Assembly (NCBI GenBank): GCA_030696085.1
Contig: JAUYNL010000034.1
Location: forward strand, 1-54,086
Origin: Luteolibacter sp.
GTDB taxonomy: Bacteria > Verrucomicrobiota > Verrucomicrobiia > Verrucomicrobiales > Akkermansiaceae
Reading direction: 5' to 3'
DNA length: 54,086 nucleotides
The notes beneath the pieces were generated by a model. The model saw only the letters and a list, made by a program, of their open reading frames with translations, was not told the origin of the DNA and ran no database searches. Below are positions 7,193 through 26,449 of this stretch, in pieces (the first letter of the stretch is position 1; every line of letters begins with the position of its first letter). A program made the position numbers and the translations under genes.

Positions 7193-7220
7193 GCCGGATA
7201 AAAACAGGATTTCAGCGATT

Positions 7221-8726
7221 TCAGCAATCGTCTTTGCTTGCCGCTCCCGCATGAACCCGGCGTGGCTTCCAGATTTCTTCGGCAGTCGGATGCCGCACCT
7301 GCTTCGGCAGCGTGAAATCCGCAAGCTGGCCTTGCTCGAAAGAAAGACCATAGGCCACCGTCAGACGATCAAGCCATCGGGTGCTTCCGTTGGGCAGCTC
7401 CAGATCTTTCGGAGCGGGCATCCCTACGTCGAACGGGTCACTTACACGCCTCCTGTTTTCGATTTTCTGGGAATCAAAAAAGCCGTTACCAAACTGCTCC
7501 ATGACTGCATCCCGGTATGGGACGCGGCAATGCCCGCCTCCACCGAAGATCACCTTGAGTTCATTGATCTGCTGCGGGCTTATCAATTTTAATTTGGCTT
7601 GTCCTACAGTGGCGTTGGAATCGGCGCTCAACTCTTTCTTTAATTCATCCCGCACGGCCGTCAGGATTGAGTTTGTGCGGCCCGATTCTTTCGCTTCGCG
7701 CCACTTCTCCAACTCCTGCCAGTTTGACTTGCCGGACCTATCTGCGGCACGCAGTTCAATGCGGCTGGAGCCGAGAGGTAGCACACGTGCGGCAAGATAG
7801 GTGAGACGCTCCTTGTTGCCCGCCCGTGAAAACAGGAACACGCTTTGGTCGACCGTGCCTGCCCCAGTATCGGAAAAGAGATACATTCCTTCCCGCGATA
7901 CCCTGGAACGCACGAAGGCTTGGACATTCGCGCTCACCTCTGGGTAGAGGAAGCAGGCCTCACGAACCTTGCTGCCATTGGCTTTCGAGGAGGCTTTGCG
8001 AATCATTTCCATGAGTTCGGCAACATTGGTCTTTGGGAATCCGGCTAACTCCTTCGACAAAACCCATGCTCTCCTCAACGCACGGTCGAACGCTACGCTT
8101 ACCTTGGGGTGGTCAATGTCAGCCACTGGCACGGCCATGTTGACGAAGATTTGGCCGTTGGTGGAAACGCCCTTGAAGCGCGTCTTTAGCTCCTTCAGGA
8201 CTCCCCCCAGTGCGCCGGCGATAAAGTAAACCGCACATGTTTCGACAAACTCAGAAAGCTCGATTCCGAGCTTTGTGGCGACCTTCTGATACGCAATCAG
8301 CTCGGGCGCGTCCCAATCATCTTTTCCTACTTTCTCCAGGGCCATCTTTACATGATAGAGGCCTCCCGCCTCGTATGCACCGCCTGCACTTTCAGGATGG
8401 CTCAGCGTGCCATTGTGATGATGCAGCACACTTGGCAAGAGGAATGGCATCTCCGATTCCTTGGTAGATGGAGGAAGATGGACCCAGGCCTTGTCCAATA
8501 GGATGTCCCGATAGACGCATTTCGAAAAGGCAGTCCCAAAGTCGAAGCCGATCTGAATGAAATGCTCAGAGCCACTAGTTTCCTCTGTCGCTGCCGGTGG
8601 GGCAGTCTTTCGTACAGTTTTCGACGGGGAAGTATTCACTGGCTCCGGGGCTTCCACGGCTTTCGGTTGCCCACTCTTGCCAAAAATCCGCTCCCGGATC
8701 CGCTTGAACACGTTTTTCTCCTTCAT
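7221..8726 (-). CDS. Hsp70/actin-fold ATPase
   Basis: This 501-residue protein has the three nucleotide-binding motifs of the actin/Hsp70 fold: phosphate-1 GFDFGTAFSK near residues 59-68, phosphate-2 SDTGAGTVDQS near 285, and an adenosine motif VIFGGGGHCRVPYRD near 400. There is a basic, low-complexity N-terminal tail (about 50 residues) and no substrate-binding domain of the DnaK type, so it is not a general chaperone. Its ATG overlaps the stop of the SNF2 helicase gene (ATGA), and hsdR begins 28 bp downstream. That ties it functionally to the helicase and to the restriction motor. A role as a regulatory ATPase or remodelling partner of the helicase is inference. Confidence 0.8.
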   Translation of the reverse strand: MKEKNVFKRIRERIFGKSGQPKAVEAPEPVNTSPSKTVRKTAPPAATEETSGSEHFIQIGFDFGTAFSKCVYRDILLDKAWVHLPPSTKESEMPFLLPSVLHHHNGTLSHPESAGGAYEAGGLYHVKMALEKVGKDDWDAPELIAYQKVATKLGIELSEFVETCAVYFIAGALGGVLKELKTRFKGVSTNGQIFVNMAVPVADIDHPKVSVAFDRALRRAWVLSKELAGFPKTNVAELMEMIRKASSKANGSKVREACFLYPEVSANVQAFVRSRVSREGMYLFSDTGAGTVDQSVFLFSRAGNKERLTYLAARVLPLGSSRIELRAADRSGKSNWQELEKWREAKESGRTNSILTAVRDELKKELSADSNATVGQAKLKLISPQQINELKVIFGGGGHCRVPYRDAVMEQFGNGFFDSQKIENRRRVSDPFDVGMPAPKDLELPNGSTRWLDRLTVAYGLSFEQGQLADFTLPKQVRHPTAEEIWKPRRVHAGAASKDDC

Positions 8727-11700: not shown

Positions 11701-11917
11701 GCCGGTCGCGGATCGAAACCCCTCCCTCCTTGGGGACTGCCTGAAGAGCCGAGAGCGGCCGCCACTTGGGGCTGCCGTCCGGGTAGCGCAGCTCCACCAT
11801 GACGTGCGAGCCGGCCTTGCGGGAGCGGCCGGTATACTGGCCCCGCTGCCCCGCGTTGTGCTGGTCAATCACCCAGTCGTCGAGCTGGAAAGGAATCTGT
11901 GCTTCAAGGTCGGACAT
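8723..11917 (-). CDS. SNF2/HepA-type DNA helicase or translocase
   Basis: This 1064-residue superfamily 2 ATPase has an N-terminal SH3-like region (FQLDDWVIDQHNAGQ), then Walker A IIADEVGLGKTIES, DEAH box VVFDEAHYMRN, motif III VSATPVNN, and the SNF2/HepA signature PWNPMRVEQRIGRIDRVGQ. The C-terminal third is rich in coiled coil (RLKNERDNKEQRLREL). This is the layout of RapA/HepA-like and DISARM DrmD-like helicases, which move on double-stranded DNA. I prefer the ATG at 11917 (MSDLEAQIPFQ) over the in-frame ATG at 11980, whose extra 21 residues are proline-rich. It is coupled to the Hsp70-like gene. None of the other DISARM genes (DrmA, DrmB, DrmC) are present, so it is not a standard DISARM locus. 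Confidence 0.85.
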   Translation of the reverse strand: MSDLEAQIPFQLDDWVIDQHNAGQRGQYTGRSRKAGSHVMVELRYPDGSPKWRPLSALQAVPKEGGVSIRDRLKSGPFGKVRDLQRLITYEKLKGTLHEVVYSMEAAQIDFYPYQFKPVLKFINSPTERLIIADEVGLGKTIESALVWTELQARRQAQRMLVVCPKILTDKWRDELRNKFLLDARIVDFRDLQQELAELKSVGPAHPFILIASYSGLRPPKKDLKLLDKPPEDDEEGGPKARFLREIRHWSYAYPPFDLVVFDEAHYMRNAGTSTFHLGESLSGHNDTGVLCVSATPVNNSNTDLHSLLRLIDRDFFETQGMFDELLEANRPAIQALNALSRTPLNLETLTEAVEGMAESEFINNSPLFEQFLKLLEGLEAKPGDKPLIAKAQDVAEKLNLLGAYVNRTRRVQVEEGRPRRRANVLSVKYTDEEMTLYNMILKLVRKKCRREKEAFHVFRVLGLQLRAASCLPAIANDIREGRLKGLGGLDDLADLLAESFGEEVFEDFWGEDEVDEDFSSTDFKALMDYDFEKNDSKFKRLKDLLVKTKDLNEKVVIFAYYRGTISYLRRRLIQMGINVAVIHGGVDHEARWEELDRFRDPLGPRVLISSEVGSEGIDLQFCRRVVNYDLPWNPMRVEQRIGRIDRVGQKAKVLSIVNFKVKDTVEERLYDRLHKKLLRFANSLGDLEAVIGEEVQKLTMALLSQELTPEEELARMDDAERAVENQLLAIQKLEESGDSLVALSDYVQKKIRENRDKGRYIQAEELEDYVSDFFEREFPGTEINYNTPYEGCIRVRLTPEGQASLATFVRNDRSLSARSLRQREFAISFRREALERLPSSQRRTVQFVNHLSPLIRWITQRNRDGVHSFYNVSAVIVPSGDLDPGDYCFKVERWTFRGLSSRESMAAVVMPLEGAALLDADRSERVLQQLLRDGKDWDYVSCDREQLASRYIELGDELMDRFESALETYEAENATTVQIRIQRAANHWDRLIQQSEKAVQTMKIAGRKESMIRGRETRLKNERDNKEQRLRELQGGEHVDIETEEVAAGIFRVVRADQKQSKA

Positions 11918-12175
11918 GGGCGATGATAATTGCGGCGGATGATGGCTTGGAGTCTCTGAAAAACGGGGCGGATTGTCCACCCGCGTCTTCGGAAAGGAAA
12001 TTAGGCCCTAGCTGGTCAAAATGGAAACATCCTGACGTCCTCTGACATCTCGGACGTAGACTGGAGTCCAGCCAAGCCGCCGGCTGTCCGCCCAAATCGG
12101 CCCCCCCCAATTCCAACGAATTACGCAAAATCGACACCTCCCGTCGATCACCTCCTACGATTATGGCTGCCATGC

Positions 12176-13060
12176 TTACGTCGGAGGCTTGTCGCAAATT
12201 CTTACATCGATGATTGAGCGACCGGCAGCACCGGGTTCAGTTCTCAGAACATCGTGGAAAGCATGAGTGATCTTGAGGTCGATCACCGCAGGAAGTTCCG
12301 CGGTTTCGATTAGGAAGGTCTCTCCACCCTCCTCAACTTTGGCCTCTTGGAATCGATTGAAGTTTCTCGGATCAATCATCGCACCTTCCTTGTCCTCACC
12401 GATCACGTTGGACATGGGCAGCAGTGCCACCTTTACAAAGAAGGTTTTGCCGTCGCCGCGCATCTCATGCTCACTTTTCCACGCGCTGCAATTTCTGTCA
12501 GCGGGAACGAGAAGAAACAGGGAAATTCGCCAGATCTGGCTTTTGCCCTGTGCCGCGTGAATTTCGGAGAGGATGTCGAGCAGCGCTCTCGAACCATGAC
12601 CGCCCTCAGCCCCGTCCACGCAAGCAATGCGTAGCTCTTCTTCAAACTGAAAAGGCAGCAGTCCTCTCAGGATTGTTTCCCTAGTTTCGTCGCTACGCTT
12701 CTGGTTGCCAGTGAAAGGGAATACACAACCAGCGGTAATCGGCATGTCGCAGTATATTTGCAGGTGTCGCCACGGCCTCTCTGCCCCACGCAGCGGCACA
12801 AGCATGACGTGTGGATGCAACTGCTTGAGCTTGTCACCCACCCTCTGGAGAGCTTCTGCATACTCGATGAAATGCTCTTCCTTGTATACGTCTTTCTCGA
12901 TGGACATATCGAGCTGCAAAGAAGACTGACAGAACGCCGGCGTCTTCACGACGAAAGGATTGTAGAAGTCCACAGAGGGATCACTGTACTCGGATCTTCT
13001 CCAAATGCCCGAAAGGCCCAAGTAATTGGAATCCACTAAACCATGATTATTGATATTCAT
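12176..13060 (-). CDS. Phosphoribosyltransferase-like protein, unassigned
   Basis: This 294-residue protein is not recognised with certainty. Two segments resemble the type I PRTase fold: a strand-loop VMLVPLRGAERPW (about residues 85-97) and a PRPP-loop-like segment RIACVDGAEGGHGSRALLD (about 145-165), where hydrophobic residues precede D and a G/S-rich turn. The canonical double acidic pair is reduced to a single D, so activity may be altered. It lies 154 bp downstream of a helicase-nuclease gene and 258 bp upstream of the SNF2 gene, all in the same direction. PRTase-like proteins have been described in predicted prokaryotic conflict systems; the assignment here rests on two motifs only. 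It could equally be a novel fold. Confidence 0.5.
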   Translation of the reverse strand: MNINNHGLVDSNYLGLSGIWRRSEYSDPSVDFYNPFVVKTPAFCQSSLQLDMSIEKDVYKEEHFIEYAEALQRVGDKLKQLHPHVMLVPLRGAERPWRHLQIYCDMPITAGCVFPFTGNQKRSDETRETILRGLLPFQFEEELRIACVDGAEGGHGSRALLDILSEIHAAQGKSQIWRISLFLLVPADRNCSAWKSEHEMRGDGKTFFVKVALLPMSNVIGEDKEGAMIDPRNFNRFQEAKVEEGGETFLIETAELPAVIDLKITHAFHDVLRTEPGAAGRSIIDVRICDKPPT

Positions 13061-13214: not shown

Positions 13215-16200
13215 TTATGAACACCAAACCATAAGAGGACAACCAGCTCGGACTCGCAGGAATGAATCCGCTGATCCGAAGATCGATCTCATTTGCTCGG
13301 TCAAGGCACTGAAGGCCACCCCGGGTTGAACCACGTAGACCTCGTTTTTCGTCTTTCGAAATTCCCTGTGCAGGCGCACTAGCTTCCTCAACATGATCGG
13401 GCTTCCTCGGTAGAACCTACTTGCCCCTCTCTGATTTCGGTCGTTGTGACGCTGCAGCATCCGTTCAGCCAATTTGTCCACGTGCCAAAGCCAATCGAAA
13501 TTCTTGACCGCTTGGGAAGTGACTTCCGTGATGTCCTTGACTCTCCCTCCTGGGTCATCACTGGAGGAGTATTTGCAATGCAGCAGACGGATCACCAAGC
13601 TGTCTTCTTCCTCGCGAATCGCAACGATGTCGGCGATTTCGTTGGCGCCGTCGTCGTCGAAAATGATGTCGAACCCCTCTTCTTCGCACCAGCGCATCGC
13701 TTGAGCTTGAATTGATTCTTCTCGAAACTCGTCCTTCTTCCAGCGCGACTCCATCCGCTGGTTTGTGGTGCCCCAATCACGAACCAAGCACTGCCTATCG
13801 ATGAACGAGGGAGCCATGAACGCCGGATCCACGAGTAGAGCACCCTCAAGTTCCGACTGGTCCACGTAGGTCAGTATGGGTGGATATTCGTTAAGGTAAT
13901 CCGGCAAGGAATCCTCACAGGAGCCGACTGTAATATTTAGTTCAGGCCCGTCCAAGTGTGATACTCGAAAGCCGTGATTCCCACCTACGATGCTCAGTCG
14001 GTATGCTGCTCGCAGATCCACCCGATCGGAATGGGAAATTGAGAAATCATAAGAGTTGGAAGCAGGATCGTAGTGTTCCAAAGAGATAGCCCAACGGTGG
14101 AAGGGATACTTTGACTCCCCCCGAATGATCGAGATTGAGGTCTCTTTGTAGCGCCTTAATCTTTCTGGCCACTCAAAGAACCAGGGGTCCTTTCCATCGG
14201 GGAGCCGTTCCACACGCTGGGGAATTAAGACTCTTTCCATAATGGCGGAAGTGTCGAAGCTTGTGTTCAGGAGTCTGGTTCCTATTGAGTCACACCACTC
14301 CATCCACTCGTTCAAACTGCCCGCCTCGCGACACCAGATCTTTCCTTTTCGCGAACACCCCAAATCAATCGGTCGACCGTCCCGATACCCGGTGCCGTAG
14401 ATATTGGATTTTGAAGATTGACTGGTGAGGATTTGCGCAATCGCATCCTTTACACTAGGACCGCTGAACATTGAGTAGCGAAGATTCCTAGCTCCGCCAC
14501 CTGTCAGTAACCCCACCTGCTGCAGATTCAAATGCTCAACACCCTCGAATGCCCTATAGGGGGCTTCATCAGAAAATCTCACAACTCCTGCGCCGCCCAT
14601 CGCCTCCGCGAGTCTTTGATGCCCCGTTTGGCTCTTGTGCGACGAACCGATGAAAAGAAGTTCGCGTTCCCGGTCATGGTAGACGACAAACAGATTGAGA
14701 ATCGAGTCCTCGATGTTCTTGTTTTTGGTCCAATCCGGGCGATCTACCAATCGGGTCACGAAAAAAACCACGCTGTTTTCATGATTCTCCCAAGCGCGGA
14801 CAAACCTGTGCTTGTTCTCTAGGCCATCCTTGATGCCATACTGATTGAAGCGCTTGGCATTGCTGTAGGCGACGGTGTTGAACTTGAAGACCAGGGTGTT
14901 TTTGTTCAGGCGGCCGGCAATGGTATCCTCCGAAATCTCCCCGTCGGAAAGATCCTGTGAGGAATGCAGGAACTCCTCGAATCGTTGGCTCTCAGCCACC
15001 TTCTCGAAACTGAGATCACGGAGAATCTCGTTCCAATTCGCGTCTTCGTCATATAGGTCCTGTAGGGATGCTGCGACTTCCTCAAAGCCTGTGTTCGCAA
15101 CGATCGTAGGCGTTCCGACGCTGTCGTCTCCCACTCTGGGAAATCTACCTGCAAACTGAAGTGTGACAGCAAGGCTCTTGAATACGTCATGCATCGCGGC
15201 AACCTTCAGTTCGGGCATGTCAAAGCCCTCTTTGAGCATGTCCACGGTCACTACGATCTTGTGATTCCCGATTCGGAGTTCCTCGATGCGCGTGGCAGGA
15301 TCTGCTTCCTTACTGTTGACGATGGTTGGATGTAGATCGGGTGCGATCCCTTCGTAGATCGATAGCACTTCCTCAGCACGCTGAATCGACTTGCAGCGGG
15401 CCAGCAAGCGGTGGTTCAAGCCGATTGCTAGATCCTGCCGTAGTTGTTCTATCGCCTTCTCCGCAATCGCCCTGTCTGCGGCATTTTTTTCAATCTCAAA
15501 AACTCCCAAAAATTTGATCTGTTTGAAGTATCCGTCATTCTGAGCATCCCGCAGAGGATAGTTGTAAATGACCTTTCCACCCAATGGAGACCGGTCCTCA
15601 CGAAATGGCGTTGCCGTGAACTGCAAGACCTTCTTCTTGGCAAAGGCTTCCTTCAGGCGGTTCCACGATGTTGATGGGACATGATGAGCCTCATCGAAGA
15701 CTAGGTGGCTGCAGCGATCGGCAACTCTGTCCAAAAATTGCACGGAGGTTCCTCCGGCTACAGAGTTGACGACGGCTATCACGACATTGCATCTATCGAA
15801 GATCTCGAGATCGGCCTCTTGCTTGAACTGATTCTCAATCACGCCGACAATAGGCGCTCTGGCGGCAGGATCGGCAATTCCATGATCAAAGAGAATCCCC
15901 AACGTAATGAATTTCTTGGCAATCTGGTCCCGCAGGGAGCGCGACGGGACCACGACCAGCACGCATTCGGGACGTGCAGCCAGAAGGAGAGAGAGCATAG
16001 TCTCGGTCTTTCCTGTTCCGGTAGGCATGACGATCGTAGCAGGCTCTGCGGAGTTGGACCAGTGTGCAAGCGTCGCATACAGCCCTCCCAGTTGGGGAGG
16101 CCGCAAGCCCAGATTATCGGGGCTGGAAGTGGCATCTTTGAACCTGAAACGGTTTACCCAGCTCAGTCTGATTGCATCGCGCAGCGCTGACGGATTCTCT

Positions 16201-16532
16201 CCCTGGAAGTCCGCCCTGAATGCATCTAGTGCATCGTGAGTCAGCCATCGCTCCTCATCACCTCGTTTGAGGTAGATCCCGTTGAACCCGGGTAAACTAT
16301 GATCCGCAGGGTTCGATGTTATCAGGTATTGTTCACCACCTATAGCCTCGAAGGCGGTGGCAGGGTTCGTTCGCCTACGAGGAATCGCTGATGCGGCCGA
16401 GTAGCGAATACAAGTGGCCTTCTGGAGCTGGCATTTAATTTGCCCGATCCCGTCACACTTTTGAGTATACCAAAGCGCAGGAAGCGAAAGTTCCTGTAAC
16501 GCGAGTTCGGTCTGTGTGTTTCTTAAAGGCAT
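13215..16532 (-). CDS. DEAD/DEAH helicase with C-terminal nuclease-like domain
   Basis: This 1105-residue superfamily 2 helicase has Walker A MPTGTGKTETML near residue 170, DEAH box LVFDEAHHVPS, motif III FTATPFRED and motif VI QFAGRFPRVG. The C-terminal 200 residues carry a PD-(D/E)XK-like arrangement: EIADIVAI, a short acidic spacer, then LLHCKYSSSDDPGGR and a helix TSQAVKNFDW. This HCKxS pattern recurs in large defence-associated helicases (recalled, not searched). It starts 17 bp after hsdS and so probably belongs to the hsdMS transcript. It is not an HsdR: the nuclease is C-terminal instead of N-terminal, and a genuine HsdR exists downstream. Together with the PRTase-like gene it may form a separate defence module. 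Confidence 0.85.
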   Translation of the reverse strand: MPLRNTQTELALQELSLPALWYTQKCDGIGQIKCQLQKATCIRYSAASAIPRRRTNPATAFEAIGGEQYLITSNPADHSLPGFNGIYLKRGDEERWLTHDALDAFRADFQGENPSALRDAIRLSWVNRFRFKDATSSPDNLGLRPPQLGGLYATLAHWSNSAEPATIVMPTGTGKTETMLSLLLAARPECVLVVVPSRSLRDQIAKKFITLGILFDHGIADPAARAPIVGVIENQFKQEADLEIFDRCNVVIAVVNSVAGGTSVQFLDRVADRCSHLVFDEAHHVPSTSWNRLKEAFAKKKVLQFTATPFREDRSPLGGKVIYNYPLRDAQNDGYFKQIKFLGVFEIEKNAADRAIAEKAIEQLRQDLAIGLNHRLLARCKSIQRAEEVLSIYEGIAPDLHPTIVNSKEADPATRIEELRIGNHKIVVTVDMLKEGFDMPELKVAAMHDVFKSLAVTLQFAGRFPRVGDDSVGTPTIVANTGFEEVAASLQDLYDEDANWNEILRDLSFEKVAESQRFEEFLHSSQDLSDGEISEDTIAGRLNKNTLVFKFNTVAYSNAKRFNQYGIKDGLENKHRFVRAWENHENSVVFFVTRLVDRPDWTKNKNIEDSILNLFVVYHDRERELLFIGSSHKSQTGHQRLAEAMGGAGVVRFSDEAPYRAFEGVEHLNLQQVGLLTGGGARNLRYSMFSGPSVKDAIAQILTSQSSKSNIYGTGYRDGRPIDLGCSRKGKIWCREAGSLNEWMEWCDSIGTRLLNTSFDTSAIMERVLIPQRVERLPDGKDPWFFEWPERLRRYKETSISIIRGESKYPFHRWAISLEHYDPASNSYDFSISHSDRVDLRAAYRLSIVGGNHGFRVSHLDGPELNITVGSCEDSLPDYLNEYPPILTYVDQSELEGALLVDPAFMAPSFIDRQCLVRDWGTTNQRMESRWKKDEFREESIQAQAMRWCEEEGFDIIFDDDGANEIADIVAIREEEDSLVIRLLHCKYSSSDDPGGRVKDITEVTSQAVKNFDWLWHVDKLAERMLQRHNDRNQRGASRFYRGSPIMLRKLVRLHREFRKTKNEVYVVQPGVAFSALTEQMRSIFGSADSFLRVRAGCPLMVWCS

Positions 16533-16549: not shown

Positions 16550-17707
16550 TCAGAGTTCTCCCCGAAATGCGCGGGATTGTAGGGAGGCGAATAGATGATC
16601 CAACTCCTCAAGCTGGTTGCGTTCCAATAACCGACGTTCTTCGATCTGCGCCACAATCTCTCCGAATTTTTTTTGAATGGCGATGGGAGGTAAAAGAACT
16701 GGAAGTTCCCGAAGCCGACCGAGCGTGATCTCCTTGAAAGTGGCACCCTTGACTTGGCGTTGAATCCAACGTTGTGCTCCGTGAGATCGTAAGTAATGAA
16801 GCAGGAACGGGAGCAATGCATCCGGCCCAGGGGCTATCCGAGCGGTGCCTTGTGTGAGATTGGCACCATCCAAACTCGGAGGGACGACGGCGGTTGTACC
16901 AACGGTGGCACGAATACTCATCACGATGTCTCCCGCATCCACCCGCGAGCGTTCAAACTTGCTCGCAATCGCTGGGTTAGTATGACGAAGACCATTTTGC
17001 ACGATTTCGCCATCCACGATGTCGCCAGTTCGAATGTAAGGGATCCCCCCGGAAAACTCGTCTCCTGCTTGCACGATTCCATAAGTCACTATCGTGCCCG
17101 GTCGCACCACTTCTGAAAGTAACTTCTCTTCCCACTCCTTCGGATTGGTGACGGGGTCGCCGAAGAGATCGAGGAAGGTGGACTGGAGGAGAGTGTCGAG
17201 CTGGGCGAGGGACTCGCGGCGCTTCGTCCGCAGTTCGGCGGCAGCATCAAGAATCGCTGCGATGCGCTTCTGTTTTTCGAGGGGCGGGAGAGGAATTTGA
17301 TGCCCCCAGAAAACATTCATCGACACTCGTGGCATTTTTGCACCAGCAACCTCGTTGCTGATCCACCTGACGAATTGCGGAGAACGAAGATAGTGGGTCA
17401 AGAAACGTCTATCCAGTCGGGTCGGATCCGGTCTAAGCGGAACGAGTTCTGTAGTAGCGACACCCGAATCGTCCGGGCAAACTACCTTGTTCAGGTAAGG
17501 GCGTAGCTTCGAGTAGAGAACATTCTGAGTGTCGAACAACTGGGTTGAAGAACCGGATTTTGAATAAGGTCCAGTGACTTTCTTCAAGATGCGTCCGCTC
17601 TCCGACTCGATCTGATCGAGATTGAGCTGCCAAACCAGATCGGTAGACCGTAATGGCAACTTAGCAGCGCAGGCAGGCGCAACCTCCTTTAACGTAGCCA
17701 TCTTCAT
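16550..17707 (-). CDS. hsdS: Type I restriction specificity subunit (HsdS)
   Basis: This 385-residue DNA-recognition subunit has two target recognition domains separated by conserved helical regions. The first half-site domain ends in the typical IPLPPLEKQKRIAAILD helix, followed by the spacer LDTLLQSTFLDLFGDP. The second domain ends with LPVLLPPIAIQKKFGEIV and a second helix to FRGEL. The start at 17707 (MKMATLKE) overlaps the hsdM stop by 4 bp (ATGA); a longer in-frame reading upstream lies inside hsdM and is a shadow. Two unlike TRDs predict a bipartite asymmetric methylation motif. The helicase-nuclease gene follows 17 bp later. Confidence 0.93.
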   Translation of the reverse strand: MKMATLKEVAPACAAKLPLRSTDLVWQLNLDQIESESGRILKKVTGPYSKSGSSTQLFDTQNVLYSKLRPYLNKVVCPDDSGVATTELVPLRPDPTRLDRRFLTHYLRSPQFVRWISNEVAGAKMPRVSMNVFWGHQIPLPPLEKQKRIAAILDAAAELRTKRRESLAQLDTLLQSTFLDLFGDPVTNPKEWEEKLLSEVVRPGTIVTYGIVQAGDEFSGGIPYIRTGDIVDGEIVQNGLRHTNPAIASKFERSRVDAGDIVMSIRATVGTTAVVPPSLDGANLTQGTARIAPGPDALLPFLLHYLRSHGAQRWIQRQVKGATFKEITLGRLRELPVLLPPIAIQKKFGEIVAQIEERRLLERNQLEELDHLFASLQSRAFRGEL

Positions 17708-19263
17708 CCTAACATTTCCTCCAGTTTTTTTCGTCCTTCGGCGATCTCCGCATCCATCTTGGCAATCCGTTTCAAAATCTCTTTCGGCAAGTCGTGATCG
17801 ATTTCCTCGTAAACCGTCTCCTTGTAGCGGTTGAGCGATAGGTCGTAGTCGTTCGCCGCAATCTCCTCCTTCGGCACAAAGAAGCTCTGGTCCGTCCGCT
17901 TCCGTTTCGCCTCGGCTTTCAGGTTCTTCCACCGGGCCAATACATCGGGAAGGTTGTTCTTGGCGTGTTCCTCTTTGTTCAGCGGAGCCTGAACAAGCGG
18001 CCCCAGCTTCTCCTGCGGTAGCAAGGGGGTGCGCTTGTCATCTAGCGAGATTCCATCGGCCTGGATGTCGTAAAACCAGACCTTGTCGGTGCCGCCCGAG
18101 TTTGTCTTGGTGAAGATCAGGATGGCTGTGGCCACGCCAGCGTAGGGACGGAAGACGCCGGAGGGCAGTTTGATCACGGCATCAAGTTTCTGGTCCTCGA
18201 CCAGCATCTGCCTCAGCCCTTGGTGTGCCCGGCTGGAACCGAACAGCACGCCATCGGGCACGATGACCGCGGCGCGGCCGCCCGGTTTCATCAGGCGCAG
18301 GAACAGCGCGAGGAATAGCAGCTCGGTTTTCCGGGTCTTGACGATCTGGAGCAGGTCCTTGGCACAGGACTCATAGTCAAGACTGCCGGCAAAGGGCGGG
18401 TTGGCGAGGATGATGGAGTATTTTTCCTCTTCCCCCGCGTGGTCTTCGGAGAGCGAGTCTCGGTTTACGATTCCGGGGTTCTGCACGCCGTGGAGCAGCA
18501 TGTTCATCGAGCCGATCCGCAACATTGTCGAATCGAAGTCGAAGCCATGGAACATCCCGTTGTGGAAGTGCTGGCGGAATTTCGCGTTGTTGAAGAGTTT
18601 CAGGTTTTCCGGACGGTTGAAGTATTCCGAAACCGCCACCAGGAAACCGGCGGTGCCGCAGGCTGGGTCGCAGATGATGTCAGTGGGCTGCGGCTCGACG
18701 ATTTCGACCATCATCTGGATGAGGTGGCGCGGGGTGCGGAACTGGCCGCTGTCGCCGGCCTGACTGAGCTTGCCGAGCATGTATTCGTAGAGGTCGCCTT
18801 TGGTGTCGCGGTCCTCCATCGGGATCTCATCGAGCAGGTCCACCACCCGGGCCAGCAACCCGGCCTTCTCCGGCGGGATCATGAAGATGGCATCCTTCAT
18901 GTGGATGGCGAAGGCGGAGTCCTTGGCTCCCATGGTCTTGATAAACGGGAAGACGTCCTGGGCGATGCGGCTGTGCATGGCACGCGGCTCAAGGTTCTTG
19001 AACCGCGACCAACGGAGGTCGCGGTAAGGAATCTTCTCCTTGGTCACCGGATTGGAGAACTTGCCCTCCGGGAAGATCGGATCCTCCACCTGGCCGCCAA
19101 GCAACTGGGCCTGCTTCTCCTTCCTGGCCTGGGCCTCATCCAGCCCCTTGATGAAGAGCAGGTAGGTCATCTGCTCGATGACGGCGATGGGGCTGGCGAT
19201 GCCGCCAGACCAGAAGGTGTCCCAGATCTGATCGATCTTGTTGCGTATTTCTCCGGTAATCAT
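17704..19263 (-). CDS. hsdM: Type I DNA methyltransferase subunit (HsdM)
   Basis: This 519-residue N6-adenine methyltransferase begins with the helical N-terminal domain MITGEIRNKIDQIWDTFW. It then has the S-adenosylmethionine motif I DPACGTAGFLVAVSEYF near residues 200-215 and catalytic motif IV as ANPPFAGS near 285. The C-terminus is the usual helical tail (KMDAEIAEGRKKLEEMLG). Length and motif order fit HsdM. It is translationally coupled to hsdS and starts 108 bp downstream of the DUF2130 gene. No hsdR follows directly; the R subunit comes after four unrelated genes. Confidence 0.95.
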   Translation of the reverse strand: MITGEIRNKIDQIWDTFWSGGIASPIAVIEQMTYLLFIKGLDEAQARKEKQAQLLGGQVEDPIFPEGKFSNPVTKEKIPYRDLRWSRFKNLEPRAMHSRIAQDVFPFIKTMGAKDSAFAIHMKDAIFMIPPEKAGLLARVVDLLDEIPMEDRDTKGDLYEYMLGKLSQAGDSGQFRTPRHLIQMMVEIVEPQPTDIICDPACGTAGFLVAVSEYFNRPENLKLFNNAKFRQHFHNGMFHGFDFDSTMLRIGSMNMLLHGVQNPGIVNRDSLSEDHAGEEEKYSIILANPPFAGSLDYESCAKDLLQIVKTRKTELLFLALFLRLMKPGGRAAVIVPDGVLFGSSRAHQGLRQMLVEDQKLDAVIKLPSGVFRPYAGVATAILIFTKTNSGGTDKVWFYDIQADGISLDDKRTPLLPQEKLGPLVQAPLNKEEHAKNNLPDVLARWKNLKAEAKRKRTDQSFFVPKEEIAANDYDLSLNRYKETVYEEIDHDLPKEILKRIAKMDAEIAEGRKKLEEMLG

Positions 19264-19371: not shown

Positions 19372-21186
19372 TCATGCGGCGGACTCCCCGGCGTCGTCTT
19401 CATTTTCCAGTTCATCATCGTCGGAGTCCTCCAGATTGAGGAGCGCGGCTGAACCCGAAAGCGCCTGCACATCGCCGACCATCCCGGCCATGCTCTCGAT
19501 GACGAGGTTGATCTGCTTTTCCCGCTTGTTCCACTTGGTGGTCAAGTAGGTCCGCTCCTTGTCGAGCTCGGTCTTCATGGAACGGAAGGCCTCGATCACG
19601 AGCTGCACCCGATGGCGGAACTCGTTTCCAGTGAGGTATTCGTAGAGCAGTTCCATCTTCTCCTTGGCTCCTTCACGGTGGCCCTTGGCGATCGTGACCT
19701 CTTGCAGGGTCACGCGGAGGGAATGGACAAGCGGAAGCGCCGAGGCGTAGTCCGTGATCCAGACGCCATCCTTCATCCCGAAACGGTCAATATCCTTCGG
19801 CAAGGTTTCAGTCACGATCAGGCCGATGTCTGCCCGGGCCGTGCGCATGTCACCGCGCAACTTGGAGGTCCAGGCGTCCTGCCACGCCTTGGTGCGCTTG
19901 GTTTCAATGAGAATAATTCCACAGCGCTGGCCGGTCCGACTGACGACCTCTTGGGCGATGTCCGCACCCCGTGTACCGGTCGAAACGGGCTCAATCTGGT
20001 CGATGGGGAACGCCTGACGAAGGCGCTGTTCGAAATCCTGCTCCAGCACTTCACCCTGAGTCTGCATCGAGCCTTGGGCGGCTTTGCGCTGGGCCTCCTG
20101 CAGCCTGGTGTTGAGATCGGAGATGACCTTTTCCTTCTCGGCAATCTTGAGGCGACTGGTATCGTCGGCTTGCTTCTGCAGGTCTTCGCGGAGCTTCTCC
20201 CGCTCCTCGTCGAGCTTCTTCTGGTTGTCGATGACAAGCTGATCTTTGTCTTCCAGCAGCTTACGCTTCTCCGCGAGGAGATCGAGTTGATCCTGCTGGG
20301 CCTTCTTGAGGGCGATGGTCTTCTCGTCGCGTTCCTGCTCAAGTGCCTTGAGGGTGAGCGCTTGATCTTCGTTCGCCTTTTTAAGCGCTGCTTCCCGCTC
20401 CGCCATCTTGGCTCGGCCTGCCTCTTCTACCTGCTGCTGTAGCTCCTGACGGATTTTTTCACGCTCCGCCTCAAGCGCCTTCTGGCTATCAATGGCGAGC
20501 TGATCCTTGTCTTCCTGCAGCTTGCGTTTCTCCGCGAGGAGATCGAGTTGCTCCTCCTGGGATTTCTTGAGGGCCACAATCTTTTCATCGCGTTCCTGTT
20601 CAAGTGCCTTGAGGGTGAGCGCTTGATCATCGTTTGCTTTTTTAAGCGCTGCCTCCCGCTCCGCCATCTTGACTCGGGATGCCTCTTCTACCTGCTGCTG
20701 TAGTTCCTGACGGATTTTTTCGCGCTCCGCCTCAAGCGCCTTCTGGCCATCAATGACGAGCTGGTCCTTCGCTTCCTGAAGTTTTCGTTTCTCGGCCAAC
20801 AGGGAGAGCTGGTCATCTTGGGCCTTTTTGAGGGCGGCGGTCTTCTCGTCGCGCTCCTGTTCAAGGGCCTTCATCGTGAGCGCCTGGTCTTCAGTGACTT
20901 TCTTGAAGGCCTTCTCCTCGGCCTTGGCACGGATCTCGGCCTCCTTCTTGCCGAGTTGCTCCTCGACGATGGCATCCACTTTCTCCTGGAGTTCATCTTT
21001 CTGCCGCTTCAGGCTGGCGAGTTCATCGCGGTAGGCTTTCTGGCGCTCTTCGAGCTGATTCTCACGTTGCGCGATGTCACCCTGAAGTTCGCGGGAAAGC
21101 CCCTCGCGGACGCTGGAAAGAACTCCCTCGTTGAGGGGGAAGATGTGGGAGCAGGACGGGCATTTGACGGTGATGGCTTCGCTCAT
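19372..21186 (-). CDS. DUF2130 coiled-coil protein with expanded repeats
   Basis: This 604-residue protein has an N-terminal CPSC knuckle (C9, C12), a very long coiled coil (about residues 30-375) and a C-terminal DUF2130 domain (GTRGADIAQEVV, then IILIETKRTKAWQ and IGLIVTETLPKDI). The IIxIExK pattern in that domain resembles a PD-(D/E)XK nuclease core. The family is often near 430 residues (from memory); the excess here comes from an 87-residue unit present about three times in the coiled coil. DUF2130 genes recur beside type I restriction genes (from memory), and this one lies 108 bp upstream of hsdM in the same direction. Its role is unknown; a DNA-end-sensing or tethering function is a guess. 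Confidence 0.85.
   Translation of the reverse strand: MSEAITVKCPSCSHIFPLNEGVLSSVREGLSRELQGDIAQRENQLEERQKAYRDELASLKRQKDELQEKVDAIVEEQLGKKEAEIRAKAEEKAFKKVTEDQALTMKALEQERDEKTAALKKAQDDQLSLLAEKRKLQEAKDQLVIDGQKALEAEREKIRQELQQQVEEASRVKMAEREAALKKANDDQALTLKALEQERDEKIVALKKSQEEQLDLLAEKRKLQEDKDQLAIDSQKALEAEREKIRQELQQQVEEAGRAKMAEREAALKKANEDQALTLKALEQERDEKTIALKKAQQDQLDLLAEKRKLLEDKDQLVIDNQKKLDEEREKLREDLQKQADDTSRLKIAEKEKVISDLNTRLQEAQRKAAQGSMQTQGEVLEQDFEQRLRQAFPIDQIEPVSTGTRGADIAQEVVSRTGQRCGIILIETKRTKAWQDAWTSKLRGDMRTARADIGLIVTETLPKDIDRFGMKDGVWITDYASALPLVHSLRVTLQEVTIAKGHREGAKEKMELLYEYLTGNEFRHRVQLVIEAFRSMKTELDKERTYLTTKWNKREKQINLVIESMAGMVGDVQALSGSAALLNLEDSDDDELENEDDAGESAA
20137..20889. repeat. Three tandem 261-bp coding repeats
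   Basis: Inside the DUF2130 gene, codons 100-350 consist of three units of 87 codons. They begin at residues 101, 188 and 275, each opening with DQALT(M/L)KALEQERDEK and containing LLAEKRKLQE. Units 1 and 2 are closest to one another at the DNA level; the last third of unit 3 is diverged. The period is a multiple of three and fits a heptad-based coiled coil, so unit gain or loss would change rod length without a frameshift. Confidence 0.85.
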
Positions 21187-21304: not shown

Positions 21305-22420
21305 CTACCCGTCGATCTGGATCTTCTCCGGCGGTAAGTCGATGGCGAGATGGCCGCCCCGAGGGACGAGGCGATCGATCTGGAAGGAGTCGAATTCTGT
21401 GCGCTTCAGCTTGGCCCGGATGTTCGAGGCCCACTTGCGCAGATCCTCCCCGGCATCGAACTGGCTCCCCAGAGCCTGGTGACTCCAATGCCCGAAGTTA
21501 TCCGGGGCCAAATGCTCGGCCTTGAGGTCCTTCAGATCCTCACCGAGGGTGCCATAGGACTCAACAGGCGGTTTCCCGTCCTTGGCCCGGATGGCAAAAA
21601 ACAAGTAGAGAAGAAACTCGTTGGCCGAGAGGCTGATGTCACGCCCCGTCACAGAAAGGCCGCCCCGGCTGGTGTCCAGTTGAACGATGAGGTCATCATC
21701 GACATTGATGGTCCGGGTGCGAAGCTGGTTCATCAGTTCCACAAAGCTTCCGGCCGAACGCTCCAGGTCCCGCTTGAACAAGTAGCGGAGCGGCACGAAG
21801 GGAACTTCCACGAGTTCCAACCTGGCGTCGGAGCTTGAGAGGCGCAGTCCGGTCTCCCGATCGACAAACTCACCCGTGCAGCCCGGATAGAGGAAGTCCT
21901 TCTGATAGATCCACTCGTCATTGATCAGGATGTGATTGATCTGATCCTGTGCCCGGCCCAGGAGGGTCATGACGGAGTGCAATAGGGCGCTGGTGGTCTT
22001 GCGTCCTCCGGCGATGGATACGATGAGGCGGACGTTATCGTTTTCCGTGAAGCCCCGAATCAGCTCCATGAAAAACTCCGCGATCGCCTCGTTGTCTTCG
22101 AGGCTGCGGATGTCATCCAGCTCCCGAGCGCGGGTCAGGTCAGGGAATACCCGGATGGAGTCGGCGATGGGGCCAAACTTCAGCTTTCCGTCGAGCGGGA
22201 CTCCCTTTTTCCTCAGCTCAGCAAGCATCCGCTCCCAGTGACCATCCTTGAACAGCTTATCCTTGAGCTGTAGGGCACCAGGAGCGGTGGTCAGCGCGAT
22301 GATCCGGTCTGGGATCACTGGATCCGATTTGGTCGCGAGGCTCCACACTGTCTCCGCCAGGACAGCCGGGGTGGCCCCCACTAGGCTGATTAGGACTGTC
22401 TGGGTGATTTCGTTTTCCAT
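21305..22420 (-). CDS. CARF-domain protein, Cas_NE0113 (Csm6/ring-nuclease-like) family
   Basis: This 371-residue protein opens with the CARF-type strand VLISLVGATPAVLAETVW, then ALTTAPGA. Its diagnostic motif is VSIAGGRKTT at residues 134-143, followed by GRAQDQINHILI. This order matches the CRISPR-associated NE0113 family, whose CARF fold binds cyclic oligoadenylate in the relatives that have been studied. The C-terminal 150 residues include a winged-helix-like segment (ISLSANEFLLYLFFA, about 262-276), so it may act as a ligand-controlled regulator, not a nuclease. No HEPN motif (RxxxxH) stands out. The ATG at 22420 (MENEITQT) gives the family-like start. It is the first gene of the long minus-strand array. 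No CRISPR array or cas gene is in the window. Confidence 0.85.
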   Translation of the reverse strand: MENEITQTVLISLVGATPAVLAETVWSLATKSDPVIPDRIIALTTAPGALQLKDKLFKDGHWERMLAELRKKGVPLDGKLKFGPIADSIRVFPDLTRARELDDIRSLEDNEAIAEFFMELIRGFTENDNVRLIVSIAGGRKTTSALLHSVMTLLGRAQDQINHILINDEWIYQKDFLYPGCTGEFVDRETGLRLSSSDARLELVEVPFVPLRYLFKRDLERSAGSFVELMNQLRTRTINVDDDLIVQLDTSRGGLSVTGRDISLSANEFLLYLFFAIRAKDGKPPVESYGTLGEDLKDLKAEHLAPDNFGHWSHQALGSQFDAGEDLRKWASNIRAKLKRTEFDSFQIDRLVPRGGHLAIDLPPEKIQIDG

Positions 22421-22548
22421 ACGGGCCAATAGAAGCGGATGGGCGTCCATTTGGGAAGTCCGCTGACGTCATCGGACCCTCCGATCCGGGCTTTTTGGTC
22501 TGGCCACGGCGTTCTCGGAGCTCCATCGTTCGATCGATAACAATCGAG
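22421..22548. promoter_or_regulatory. Divergent promoter region with two palindromes
   Basis: These 128 bp separate the divergent CARF and AAA ATPase starts. They hold the palindrome TGACGTCA (22464-22471), directly followed by ATCGGA-CCC-TCCGAT (22471-22485, 6-bp arms). Such tight symmetric sites between divergent genes fit an operator. The candidate binder is the winged-helix-like C-terminus of the CARF protein. No convincing -35/-10 pair could be fixed by eye. Confidence 0.45.
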
Positions 22549-24525
22549 ATGATCCCGGCTACCTACACTGTTGGTAATTTCAAGGCGATAGGCGCCCCTC
22601 AAACCATCTTGCTCCGGCCAGTAACCCTGGTCTTCGGCCAAAACAGCGCCGGCAAGTCGAGCATCATCCAATCCCTGTTGCTCTCCCGGTTCGCCATGGA
22701 GAAAGGCAGCTTCGATTTCACTTCGGCAAAGCGCTGGGGGCAAACGGTCGATCTGGGTGGCTTCCGGCAGTATGTTCACCGCCATGAGACGGATAGGGAT
22801 CTGACTTTCCGTTTCGAGTTCCGACGCACCCCGATCGAGATGGGAAGCAGCGCCTTGGATTCACAGGTCAACCGGCAGGCGTCCGTCCGGGCAAAGGACC
22901 AACTCCCTCCGGACTGGTCGTTCTCCTTTTTGAACGATCTGGAGAGGATTTCGGTGAATTTCCTCGTCGGTCTTGCTCCTCCGGAGTGGCGGGACAAGCT
23001 CGGACAGGAACGGCCGGTCGTGAAAGAATTGGAGCTTGGAGGAGATGGCAAACCGCTCCTGAATTTTTCCCTCGATCGAAATGGAGGACTCCAACTGGCA
23101 AAGCTGTTCAACGACAGCCAAGCTCTGATCATTGCGATCGCTCAGCTGGTTCTCGACTACCGGAAGAAACTCACTGCTGATGGAGCCGAAGATGAGCAGG
23201 ATCTGGAAGAACTGGCAAAATCCCTGGGTTCCGTTCCGGTGGAAGAAAACGCGTTTCGAGAGGTCATGAGCCATGTGGCCGACGCTTACGAAGCTGCATG
23301 TGCAGTTGACGAGCCATCGCCCGAGCTTCTCGACTTGCTCGGAGCCAGCGAAGCAATGGGCCGCTTTGTTTGGATCGTCACAGCCCAGCTTGCTAATGAA
23401 CTGAAAACACCCGGACGTGCTTTGCTGCTCGAAGGAAGCGGACTCGATTACCGAATCAAACAAAGCGGCCGCCTCGATGCCACCAGACTTCAGGTCATTC
23501 CTTCACCAGGAGAAAAAGAGGCTTACGATACGGGGACGTCCTTGGGAAAAGCGGCAACCCTTGAGGCCATTGATGATCCTTTGTCCTTTTTCTGTGACGA
23601 CCCGGGAGAGACCGATGTGACCTCGGCACTCGCCAAGGCCTTGCGGTTCGACTTGCAAATGATGATCGATGCCACCTTCGATTCCCTGCGCTGGTGGCTG
23701 CTGGGCACCGAATACATCGGTCCCTACCGTTCGATTCCGGACCGGTATTTCCAAATCGCCAAGCCGGACACCTCGCAAGAGGTCGATCAGGGGTATCAGG
23801 CGCTCAGAAGGATCGCGGAGAACCCGAAACTCCTGCGCCGGATCTCCAATGCATTCCAGGAGATCATGGGTAGCCCCTACCGGCTGGAAGTCAGGAAGAT
23901 CGCCCCATCGGTGGACTTCGCCCAACTCGAAGAAAATGTGCAGCGCTATCTCGAAGTCGAGGCAGTGAAAAAGGACGCAGACGTCAAAGACGGCGTCCGC
24001 GAAGTCATGGCTTCCGCCACAGAGGGCCGGATCGTGAAGGGCGTCTATCTCGTGGACACCAGGAACGGCACCGACGTGGACTTCTGCGATGTTGGTTTCG
24101 GGATTGGGCAGGTGCTCCCCTTGCTTGCCGAGGTTGCTTCCGAGCGAAGCGGCCTGGTCTGCATCGAGCAACCGGAAGCGCATCTGCACCCGAAGATGCA
24201 GAGCGATCTTGCCGACGTCTTCCTTCAGGATTGGTCGAAAGATGAAGGATCCGCCGACAGCCCATTGGCAGGGGGGATTTTCATTCTTGAAACTCACAGT
24301 GAGCACCTGATTCTGCGCCTGCTTCGACGGATCAGGGAAACCACACGGAAAAAGTTGCCTAATGGAATGCGCCAGGTGAGTCCCGACGAAATTTCCGTGA
24401 TGTGGGTGGAAGCTGGGAAAGAGGGTTCTTTGGTAACTCCTCTTGCGATCAGTAAACAGGGGCAGTTCGTTGACGAGTGGCCGGCTGGCTTCTTCGAGGA
24501 GCGTCTTGACGAAATGTTTGACTAA
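22549..24525 (+). CDS. AAA ATPase with DUF3696-like C-terminus (OLD/SMC-like)
   Basis: This 658-residue ABC/SMC-type ATPase starts at the ATG of MIPATYTVGNFKAIG. Walker A GQNSAGKSS is at residues 30-38. The signature and Walker B region read GFGIGQVLPLLAEV, then LVCIEQPEAHLHPKMQ, and the switch histidine is in ILETHSEHL. The C-terminal end WPAGFFEERLDEMFD is typical of DUF3696. Such ATPases act as the sensor or motor component of two-gene defence systems such as Septu PtuA or the OLD-nuclease families. No Toprim domain is visible, so it is not GajA. The last 8 bp overlap the TTG start of the partner gene, indicating coupling. Confidence 0.85.
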   Translation: MIPATYTVGNFKAIGAPQTILLRPVTLVFGQNSAGKSSIIQSLLLSRFAMEKGSFDFTSAKRWGQTVDLGGFRQYVHRHETDRDLTFRFEFRRTPIEMGSSALDSQVNRQASVRAKDQLPPDWSFSFLNDLERISVNFLVGLAPPEWRDKLGQERPVVKELELGGDGKPLLNFSLDRNGGLQLAKLFNDSQALIIAIAQLVLDYRKKLTADGAEDEQDLEELAKSLGSVPVEENAFREVMSHVADAYEAACAVDEPSPELLDLLGASEAMGRFVWIVTAQLANELKTPGRALLLEGSGLDYRIKQSGRLDATRLQVIPSPGEKEAYDTGTSLGKAATLEAIDDPLSFFCDDPGETDVTSALAKALRFDLQMMIDATFDSLRWWLLGTEYIGPYRSIPDRYFQIAKPDTSQEVDQGYQALRRIAENPKLLRRISNAFQEIMGSPYRLEVRKIAPSVDFAQLEENVQRYLEVEAVKKDADVKDGVREVMASATEGRIVKGVYLVDTRNGTDVDFCDVGFGIGQVLPLLAEVASERSGLVCIEQPEAHLHPKMQSDLADVFLQDWSKDEGSADSPLAGGIFILETHSEHLILRLLRRIRETTRKKLPNGMRQVSPDEISVMWVEAGKEGSLVTPLAISKQGQFVDEWPAGFFEERLDEMFD

Positions 24526-25408
24526 AACCGTGTTCAAGTACGTTTTCATCGACCCGGAGACGATTGCGGCGGTGGCGCAGGATGAAGCCGGCCTCGGAAG
24601 ACTCGTGGATGTCCTCCGAAGCATGGATCGAGGTTGTTTGATGGCTGAGACGGATCTCTGGCGTCTGGGACGCGAACTGAAAGCCAAGGTGAAGACAATT
24701 CCGATAGAGAACGGGCGTTCGGTCGTGAGTGAACTGATCATCCAATTAGGCAAAAAGGGACCAAGGGTTGTCATGGATGGAGACGACGAAGAAATTTCCT
24801 TGATCGATTTCGGGGTCGCCAATGCCGAACGTGATTCTATCGACCTTTTCCTGACTCCATCCGAAATCAATCCCCCAAAAAATGCTTCATGGGAAGTTTG
24901 CTCTCTAATATCTCTTCACGCTTCGTCGTTCTCCAGCGATCGGCATAACGTCGGCCATGGACGAGCGTTCAAAAAAGGGGCAGCAACTGGTGACGCAATC
25001 TTTTGCCAATGCTTCGAGAAGCTAATTAAACACGCCTGCGAGATTGTGATCGTCGACTATGCTCTTGGCGAGTATTATGGCAATGATCACCCAATCAACC
25101 TTCGCCGCTGGGTTTTGTGGATCGACTCCCATCTTAAAAATCCGTCTGAGACGACGCTGACAATCCGGACTTGTGGCGATTTTTCAAATCCAGCCTTTCG
25201 TAGTCTGCAGCGCGACGTAAGCAGCCTCCAGCAGGAGGTTGATCTGACACTAAGACTGGATACAGGCCTATCGAAGGAGCAGCTGCCACACCGTCGATTT
25301 CTCATTGCAGACGGAAGTTGCCTTGACATCGACCGGGGCATCGACATCTGCGACTCTGGAGGTAACTGTAGGGAGGTAAGTATCACCTACGCCAATAAGC
25401 CTCGATAG
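24518..25408 (+). CDS. Unrecognised partner of the AAA ATPase
   Basis: This is a roughly 296-residue protein. The start is probably TTG at 24518, overlapping the ATPase stop; GTG at 24530 is an alternative, and the further in-frame upstream reading lies inside the ATPase gene. An N-terminal strand FKYVFIDPETIAAV and the stretches RVVMDGDDEEISLIDFG and VIVDYALGEYYGNDHP suggest an alpha/beta domain. The C-terminus has LPHRRFLIADGSCLDIDRG, an H-x-R-F/Y pattern like that of PLD-related or other effector domains, but the HxKxxxxD motif is absent. It has no HNH, so it is not a PtuB. By position it is the effector of the ATPase cassette (inference). The function is unknown. Confidence 0.7.
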   Translation: MTKTVFKYVFIDPETIAAVAQDEAGLGRLVDVLRSMDRGCLMAETDLWRLGRELKAKVKTIPIENGRSVVSELIIQLGKKGPRVVMDGDDEEISLIDFGVANAERDSIDLFLTPSEINPPKNASWEVCSLISLHASSFSSDRHNVGHGRAFKKGAATGDAIFCQCFEKLIKHACEIVIVDYALGEYYGNDHPINLRRWVLWIDSHLKNPSETTLTIRTCGDFSNPAFRSLQRDVSSLQQEVDLTLRLDTGLSKEQLPHRRFLIADGSCLDIDRGIDICDSGGNCREVSITYANKPR

Positions 25409-26318: not shown

Positions 26319-26421
26319 GTCGTAAATCTGCGCAATATCCCGACATTCGCAACAAAAAAATTGGAGGAAAGAGACTTCAATCCAAGCCAATTTAGAAAAC
26401 TTTCAAAACTTTCTTGACGAT

Positions 26422-26449
26422 TGCCGGTTTATTGCGCAGTAAACCGGCA
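26422..26449. promoter_or_regulatory. Perfect 10-bp inverted repeat at the excisionase start
   Basis: Arms TGCCGGTTTA (26422-26431) and TAAACCGGCA (26440-26449) are separated by 8 bp. The right arm includes the A of the ATG of the gene at 26449. Two short direct repeats AACTTTC lie just upstream (about 26398-26413), and a TTGACG hexamer lies at 26414-26419. The site could be an operator for the divergent XRE repressor or a hairpin that blocks translation initiation of the excisionase-like gene. Confidence 0.55.

Follow-up and report, generated by a model that had tools for sequence, protein, structure and literature searches.

The window analysed here, a 54,086-nt stretch of DNA from Luteolibacter sp. 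(own genome, G000), carries a gene of the CARF5/NE0113 family encoding a 381-aa protein, P0001, which is probably a ligand-controlled transcription factor that joins a CARF domain to a winged helix-turn-helix (wHTH) and controls the defence island headed by its own gene, working like the CapW and BrxR regulators. The reading combines the observed family, predicted fold, pocket residues, and gene order with a box, GACGTC-N4-GACGTC, and its positions, and with a relative that heads an operon of a cyclic oligonucleotide-based antiphage signalling system (CBASS). We infer that P0001 binds this box, responds to a ligand, and acts as a repressor or an activator. We know of few defence islands that have a known switch.

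Family, fold, and ligand pocket of P0001

The gene and its two domains lie as follows.

21305..22450, minus strand: CARF5/NE0113 gene, 381 aa (TIGR02584, PF09623, PADLOC CARF5)
21776..22402, minus strand: CARF domain, residues 17-225 (TIGR02584 match, structure model, PDB matches)
21308..21685, minus strand: OmpR/PhoB-type winged helix, residues 256-381 (separate model of residues 228-381 and PDB matches)

P0001 scores 153 bits against NCBIfam TIGR02584 (curated cut-off 80.65) and 85.7 bits against Pfam PF09623 (curated cut-off 23), and the PADLOC CARF5--CARF model covers residues 17-379 with 209 bits. An initial annotation had described an NE0113-family CARF protein heading a restriction array, and this description holds, with genes for HsdM, HsdS, HsdR, a DrmD-like helicase, and a ResIII helicase present. 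That annotation ended the gene at 22420, where an in-frame ATG forms codon 11 of the open reading frame (ORF) and is a plausible true start. The nearest solved fold to a structure model of the full-length protein (pLDDT [predicted local distance difference test] 86.3, predicted template modelling score [pTM] 0.66) is the CARF of Cad1 (Z 15.7; 189 aligned, 3.3 A), and other matches in the PDB include the ring nucleases Sis0455 (Z 14.9) and Sso2081 (Z 13.7). Structure prediction thus agrees with the CARF fold first suggested by the VSIAGGRKT motif, residues 144-152.

The ligand pocket, whose loss had been raised as a concern, shows no sign of loss. R150 and K151 of the GGRK motif are present, as they are in 83 and 84 of 86 family rows, and D169 and H173 are kept in the same alignment. 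A profile alignment to Sso2081 places R150/K151 at Arg105/Lys106 and Thr27 at Ser11; the Arg105Ala change in Sso2081 is reported to abolish binding of cyclic tetra-adenylate (cA4) (PMC10018336). Thr27 stands where the GxSP motif has Ser. Since the same Thr is found in 15 of the 86 rows, including five whose loci hold Cas10, it is no sign of lost activity, and loss of the ring-nuclease Ser was discarded as a mark of a CRISPR-free clade (CRISPR, clustered regularly interspaced short palindromic repeats). P0001 alone among the 86 rows has Thr153 for Met, which 80 rows carry; the two closest relatives described below share this Thr, giving the clade signature GRKTT.

No Csm6-type HEPN RNase domain was matched in P0001 by Pfam or NCBIfam, and because of this the NCBIfam name of the TIGR02584 family, "ring nuclease Csm6", may be misleading for this protein. 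Pfam likewise gave no match to a sigma54-type AAA+ domain of the RtcR-like kind, the CARF and winged helix filling the 381 aa, and none to a WYL domain; a PADLOC model named WYL/Csx1 matched residues 17-297 with 99.8 bits (profile positions 3-215 of 279).

The C-terminal winged helix proposed in the initial annotation is supported by a separate model of residues 228-381, built with 30 sequences (pLDDT 88.7, pTM 0.80). Its PDB matches include BaeR (Z 10.7; 98 aligned, 2.5 A), VicR (9.5), and PhoB (8.8), and from their titles we read all of the top 50 structure matches as OmpR/PhoB type. Foldseek E-values for this region are weak (best 5.3e-3), and the family profile also touches SaeR and ArlR (E 0.07-0.14). 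The models and PDB matches give P0001 a CARF followed by a winged helix, a layout as in Csa3-like factors. OmpR/PhoB-type domains bind tandem repeats of about 10 bp.

The closest relatives of P0001

The TIGR02584 family is found in 21 of the 386 genomes of the order, and two proteins are far closer to P0001 than the rest. L207 (genome G412) is the closest full-length relative found, with 59% identity over 363 aa, while L208 (G493), with 70% over 218 aa, is truncated where its contig ends. Downstream of the L207 CARF gene, on the same strand, come genes for an effector of SAVED-HNH type (452 bits), for a CD-NTase (382 bits), and for an E2 protein (210 bits), a CBASS operon that the CARF gene heads. 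No further clade members were found among 74 genomes of the family of G412 or 260 of the family to which the own genome belongs, the latter searched at E 1e-50.

Phylogenetic analysis joined the window protein with L208 (support 97), then with L207 (99), then with the Cas10-linked L055 and L067 (99; Shimodaira-Hasegawa-like approximate likelihood ratio test). This was a quick tree of 45 of 62 rows, restricted to CARF rows with an N-terminus fitting a regular expression; that filter, applied also in the tests of 62, 61, and 61 upstream regions, dropped many proteobacterial rows. As L055 and L067 stand beside cas10, the clade is probably derived from type III-linked ancestors. A type III locus from which the gene had merely drifted, which would have counted against the initial annotation, does not lie in the window and was not found in the genome.

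A 10-bp repeat in CARF5 loci

The element GACGTC-N4-GACGTC, which repeats with a period of 10 bp, recurs in CARF5 loci of this bacterial group. Across 136 such loci (1.99 Mb), 22 unique boxes are perfect and 52 match at least 11 of 12 positions; uniqueness was judged by 66-bp context, so that near-identical relatives may count twice. The same DNA holds 0-2 perfect copies and 0-14 at 11/12 for other spacers from 0 to 20, and 0-1 perfect copies and 1-10 at 11/12 for nine control hexamers. No site at 11/12 or better was found in 400 kb of the same group away from CARF5 loci, nor any at 10/12 or better in the type I-E and V-B CRISPR stretches of the own genome. The 10-bp period fits an OmpR-type domain, which supports P0001 as the binder of the box.

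The perfect boxes often precede genes at a set distance: for 16 of the 22, a gene start is called no more than 200 bp away, with 9 of these 16 standing 57-70 bp before it. Genes with a perfect box at this distance are cas10 (L047, L057, L085, L094, L099), cas1 (L057), an AAA gene (L038), and, with starts set by motif, the CARF genes of L066 and L207. The box is also found before card1 genes. A second perfect box in L207 lies in the gap between the CARF and effector genes, 18 bp before the called effector start; we read it as standing 62 or 68 bp before an in-frame GTG and ATG nearer the effector domain. In 11 gammaproteobacterial loci, a separate search for a common 10- or 11-bp hexamer repeat gave no candidate present in more than 2 of them.

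A matrix built from the 22 perfect sites, all of which are outside the window, was scored along the window and gave the following boxes.

22455..22470, no strand: box O1, 11/12, between the CARF gene and the divergent AAA gene; best window site, 19.8 bits
12034..12049, no strand: box O3, 11/12, 54 bp before the called drmD start; second-best window site, 16.2 bits
21253..21268, no strand: weak box O2, in the gap between the CARF and DUF2130 genes; fifth window site, 5.5 bits

Sixty block-shuffled windows reach the scores of O1 and O3 0 and 0.017 times on average. The third site, at 45697 (9.8 bits), falls beyond the island and scores about as high as the shuffle maxima do (mean 10.5), and the fourth, at 12053, adjoins O3. 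The second perfect box of L207 is in the same place as O2. O3 precedes the genes for DrmD, a protein without assignment, and HsdR, which make up the cutting half of the array and are separate from HsdM and HsdS.

A 20-nt near-palindrome (22458-22477, 9 of 10 pairs) between the CARF and AAA genes overlaps O1, and a related palindrome precedes the CARF genes of L207 and L208, so that all three clade members have one. With at most one mismatch, GTCN3TGACGTCAN3GAC occurs only before the CARF gene in each of the three whole clade genomes, and read backwards it gives 0, 0, and 1 matches; the pattern was drawn from these sites, so this shows uniqueness and is not an independent discovery.

CRISPR loci and signal-producing enzymes

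The initial annotation had described the array as without CRISPR, which is true of the window but not of the genome. Among the scanned ORFs of the window (not every ORF in every library) no Cas10 or other cas gene was recognised, a repeat search found no CRISPR-like series there, and an Rfam scan of the window returned a transfer-messenger RNA only. Elsewhere in the genome, Cas1 matches lie on contigs C71 and C11, with arrays beside both. From their sequences we read C71 (L149) as a type V-B locus, with a 1461-aa Cas12b-like protein, a Cas4-Cas1-like protein, and an array, and C11 (L150) as a type I-E locus, with Cas7-, Cas5-, Cas6-, and Cas1-like proteins and arrays.

The genome-wide search for type III CRISPR that had been called for found none: Cas10 gave no match to PF22335 and none to TIGR02578 at E 1. 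The genome is 96% complete in 110 contigs, and a missed Cas10 or type III locus is therefore possible. SMODS (PF18144) has a match in 1 of 14 genomes and none in G000. Since it took a different Pfam model (PF21654) to find the CD-NTase of L207, SMODS can miss CD-NTases, and one in G000 is possible.

Proposed control of the island and its alternatives

We propose that the CARF sensor, joined to an OmpR/PhoB-type winged helix, would bind GACGTC-N4-GACGTC boxes and set expression of the island. O1 would control the CARF gene itself, the run of DUF2130, HsdM, and HsdS, and the divergent AAA pair, and O3 would control the cutting half of the array, in which case restriction could rise independently of methylation. 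Infection would give rise to a nucleotide ligand that occupies the CARF pocket and alters the binding of DNA; candidates are a cyclic oligonucleotide and, as has been suggested for RtcR, RNA ends. The picture drawn in the initial annotation is partly supported: the predicted boxes at the CARF/AAA promoter and before drmD make control of the array likely, and the protein may sense a cyclic nucleotide. We give even chances to a wider proposal, that this CARF5 clade has left type III CRISPR behind and now serves as an interchangeable ligand-controlled commander of other defences (CBASS in one genome, a type I restriction/DrmD array in another), acting through a box inherited from its CRISPR past and linking a nucleotide second messenger directly to restriction.

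Several observations weigh against control by P0001 through the box. The window boxes O1 and O3 are imperfect and O2 is weak, 1 of the 60 shuffled windows scored above O3 (largest 16.58), the palindrome at O1 is equalled in symmetry by three other 20-mers of the window, and one 11/12 box occurs in 305 kb of other contigs of the own genome. Among the 52 sites, 19 are inside called ORFs with no start near, some of these ORFs looking as if they were called too early. Only 30 of 91 distinct CARF loci have a box at 11/12 or better (13 perfect; the loci are in many cases short), and the list of box sites includes no named proteobacterial locus; membership of the CARF5 family does not need the box. 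The regions upstream of CARF genes are mildly enriched at 10/12 (10 of 61 versus 28 of 543, p 0.0026), with p 0.14 at 9/12, which we attribute to the box also lying upstream of cas and other genes. The clade comprises three proteins, one of them truncated by a contig end, and the Cas10 and SMODS searches recognised no maker of a ligand in the own genome.

The leading alternative is that P0001 still belongs to type III or ring-nuclease biology, with no specific DNA binding or promoter control. In this phylum most of the family is linked to type III: of 387 genomes, 36 match TIGR02584 (32 over cut-off), and 24 of these 36 have a Cas10 match (E 0.001; 23 over cut-off), on the same contig in 20 and within 10 kb in 17. 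The Cas10-linked sister proteins, the ring-nuclease family name, and the retained R150 and K151 point the same way. We nevertheless consider this unlikely, since the C-terminal domain is 49% identical between P0001 and L207, L207 heads a CBASS operon, and boxes stand at two promoters of the island.

Slightly less probable is action at the protein level, in which P0001 would be a sensor or ring nuclease and the DUF2130 protein its effector partner. The DUF2130 gene is directly downstream of the CARF gene, its product has an end that in our own reading of the sequence looks like a PD-(D/E)xK nuclease, and CARF5 is near DUF2130 in L113, in L114 (with Cas10), and in L120 (with Cas1 and Card1), a possible effector pair. 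However, the pairing is seen in 3 of 80 loci of a scan (the best 80 of 553 with the motif S[IV][AS]GGRK[TS]M, which GRKTT does not fit, so that the nearest kin are absent), no DUF2130 was called in L207, and none of 21 other DUF2130 matches in the class has a CARF called within 1.5 kb. DUF2130 was not seen as a usual restriction-modification partner in the class, with neither HsdM nor CARF called within about 1.5 kb of any of the 21; the check used phmmer with the window's proteins on short flanks and misses distant partners. It is improbable that the box is real but serves another regulator or element common to these loci, with CARF merely one target: other regulators could act at the boxes before cas10, cas1, and card1, but the period suits an OmpR-type domain, control stretches and the genome's other CRISPR loci are free of the box, and CARF5 is the gene common to these loci, though they were chosen for CARF5.

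If control by P0001 through the box is correct, a family named after a ring nuclease would consist of transcription factors with a readable box, so that regulons could be mapped by sequence, and a sensor thought to serve type III CRISPR could command restriction and CBASS. Second-messenger control of restriction would then be testable with one protein and two promoters.

Comparison with known regulators

Type III-linked NE0113/TIGR02584/CARF5 proteins are over the cut-off of the same family and have the same layout of CARF and winged helix, and the box is common to the P0001 locus and several of their loci. P0001 differs from them in a genome without Cas10 by two models, in heading restriction genes, and in its GRKTT signature. 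NE0113 was reported as a possible transcription regulator in a 2014 prediction (PMC4012209). The box itself, the relative that heads a CBASS operon, and the boxes within this island are new; the titles and abstract openings of the open-licence literature searched held no NE0113 operator and no CARF-wHTH protein heading a CBASS operon.

Like P0001, Csa3 and MM_0565 join a CARF to a winged helix. Csa3 is described as a CARF-wHTH transcription factor with cA4 (PMC8844856, PMC8699464), and MM_0565 as a CARF and winged-helix regulator of transcription (PMC7465815). Both are CRISPR-associated, whereas the P0001 clade stands with restriction and CBASS genes, and the winged helix of P0001 is of OmpR/PhoB type. 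RtcR-like CARF proteins are reported to head coiled-coil nuclease tandem (CoCoNuT) and type I restriction-modification superoperons (PMC11090510). They resemble P0001 in that the CARF gene leads a long defence array in which type I restriction-modification comes next, but have the sigma54-type AAA+ domain that was not found in P0001.

CapW and BrxR are reported as WYL-domain regulators beside diverse defence operons (PMC9122588, PMC9122589, PMC9122601). CapW is described as binding, as a homodimer, an approximately 20-bp palindrome in a CBASS promoter, with a ligand as its proposed switch (PMC9122588). The likeness to P0001, whose role is predicted, is that of a regulator gene by a defence operon with a promoter palindrome of about 20 bp and a proposed ligand switch. 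CapW has a WYL sensor and an N-terminal helix, whereas P0001 has a CARF sensor and a C-terminal OmpR-type helix, and capW is on the opposite strand from its operon, whereas the P0001 gene is first in its run. The nearest solved folds to its CARF domain are those of Crn1/Sso2081 and Cad1; by entry titles and lengths, Sso2081 lacks a winged helix and Cad1 has a deaminase in that place.

CARF5 genes in other loci

The window's genome is one of the 12 with a TIGR02584 match and no Cas10 match. Three of the others are CRISPR-linked by neighbours on short contigs: Cas1 and Card1 in L032, a Cas10-like protein in L035, and Card1 in L037. In two more, G227 and G159, there is a 4-bp overlap between the CARF gene and a Fic gene, and no cas gene was called in the vicinity. 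A CARF5 gene followed by a Fic gene, again with no cas genes called nearby, is seen in L033, L038, L082, and L084; in L038 and L084 it is also followed by an AAA gene related to that of the window. A CARF5 group of Kiritimatiellae-like bacteria (L090, L093, L100, L101, L106; support 100) has no cas gene called in the available flanks.

Vibrionaceae and allies carry CARF5 genes near varying defence genes: 12 bp behind Druantia III genes in L128, 53 bp behind LeoBC-LeoA in L132, about 100 bp behind a PDC-M16A-like gene in L136, and within 10 kb of HsdRMS in L107 and L131 and of a HerA-like gene in L126. L133 and L135 hold relatives of the L128 helicase, and no defence system was identified near CARF5 in L109, L121, and L140. 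In the 11 genomes that carry these loci, the Cas10 match is strong in one (L107, 117.6 bits), absent in one, and 24-31 bits in nine; we take these last as GGDEF proteins, as an E. coli control matches too. No relatives of P0001 were found in phages, and viral contigs gave no match with P0001 or A3 as the query; plasmid relatives amount to 9 records, all below 60% identity.

The island and its surroundings

Behind the CARF gene, the minus-strand run reads DUF2130, HsdM, HsdS, helicase, a protein without assignment, DrmD, a second such protein, and HsdR; the AAA pair lies on the other side.

22495..24525, plus strand: divergent AAA ATPase with a DUF3696-like end, likely ATG at 22549 (library matches; homologues beside CARF5 in L038 and L084)
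24443..25408, plus strand: 321-aa partner of the AAA gene (no Pfam, NCBIfam, or PADLOC match)
19372..21186, minus strand: DUF2130 coiled-coil protein, 604 aa (PF09903, 211 bits)
17704..19263, minus strand: HsdM (PF02384, PF12161)
16550..17932, minus strand: HsdS (PF01420; PADLOC Specificity_I)
13215..16532, minus strand: ResIII/DEAD helicase, 1105 aa (PF04851)
12176..13060, minus strand: 294-aa protein (no Pfam or NCBIfam match)
8723..11980, minus strand: DrmD-like SNF2 helicase, 1085 aa (PADLOC DrmD, 669 bits)
7221..8726, minus strand: 501-aa protein (no Pfam or NCBIfam match)
3734..7351, minus strand: HsdR, 1205 aa (PF04851, PF08463; PADLOC REase_I, 549 bits)

The DrmD-like helicase is under the NCBIfam DrmD cut-off (367.7 of 610 bits). 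Homology of the 24443-25408 product to the AAA partners in L038 and L084 found no support (blastp E >2, hhalign probability 0.4%). Three tandem 261-bp repeats, 69-79% alike, lie at 20131-20913 in the coiled-coil part of the DUF2130 gene.

Beyond HsdR are a protein with a sigma region 4-like end, a protein without assignment, and a UvrD-like helicase with an IrrE-type N-terminus. Stretches like sigma-70 region 4 occur in defence-island proteins both in the window (2852-3676) and in L207 (6254-9100), the latter also holding a stretch like the C-terminal domain of the RNA polymerase alpha subunit. An integrase lies at 26739-28139, and beside it a 20-nt near-palindrome (26426-26445) stands just before a helix-turn-helix gene (25731-26390), of which it is a possible operator. 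The contig ends carry a perfect 139-bp inverted repeat (1-139, 53947-54085), perhaps where the assembly broke.
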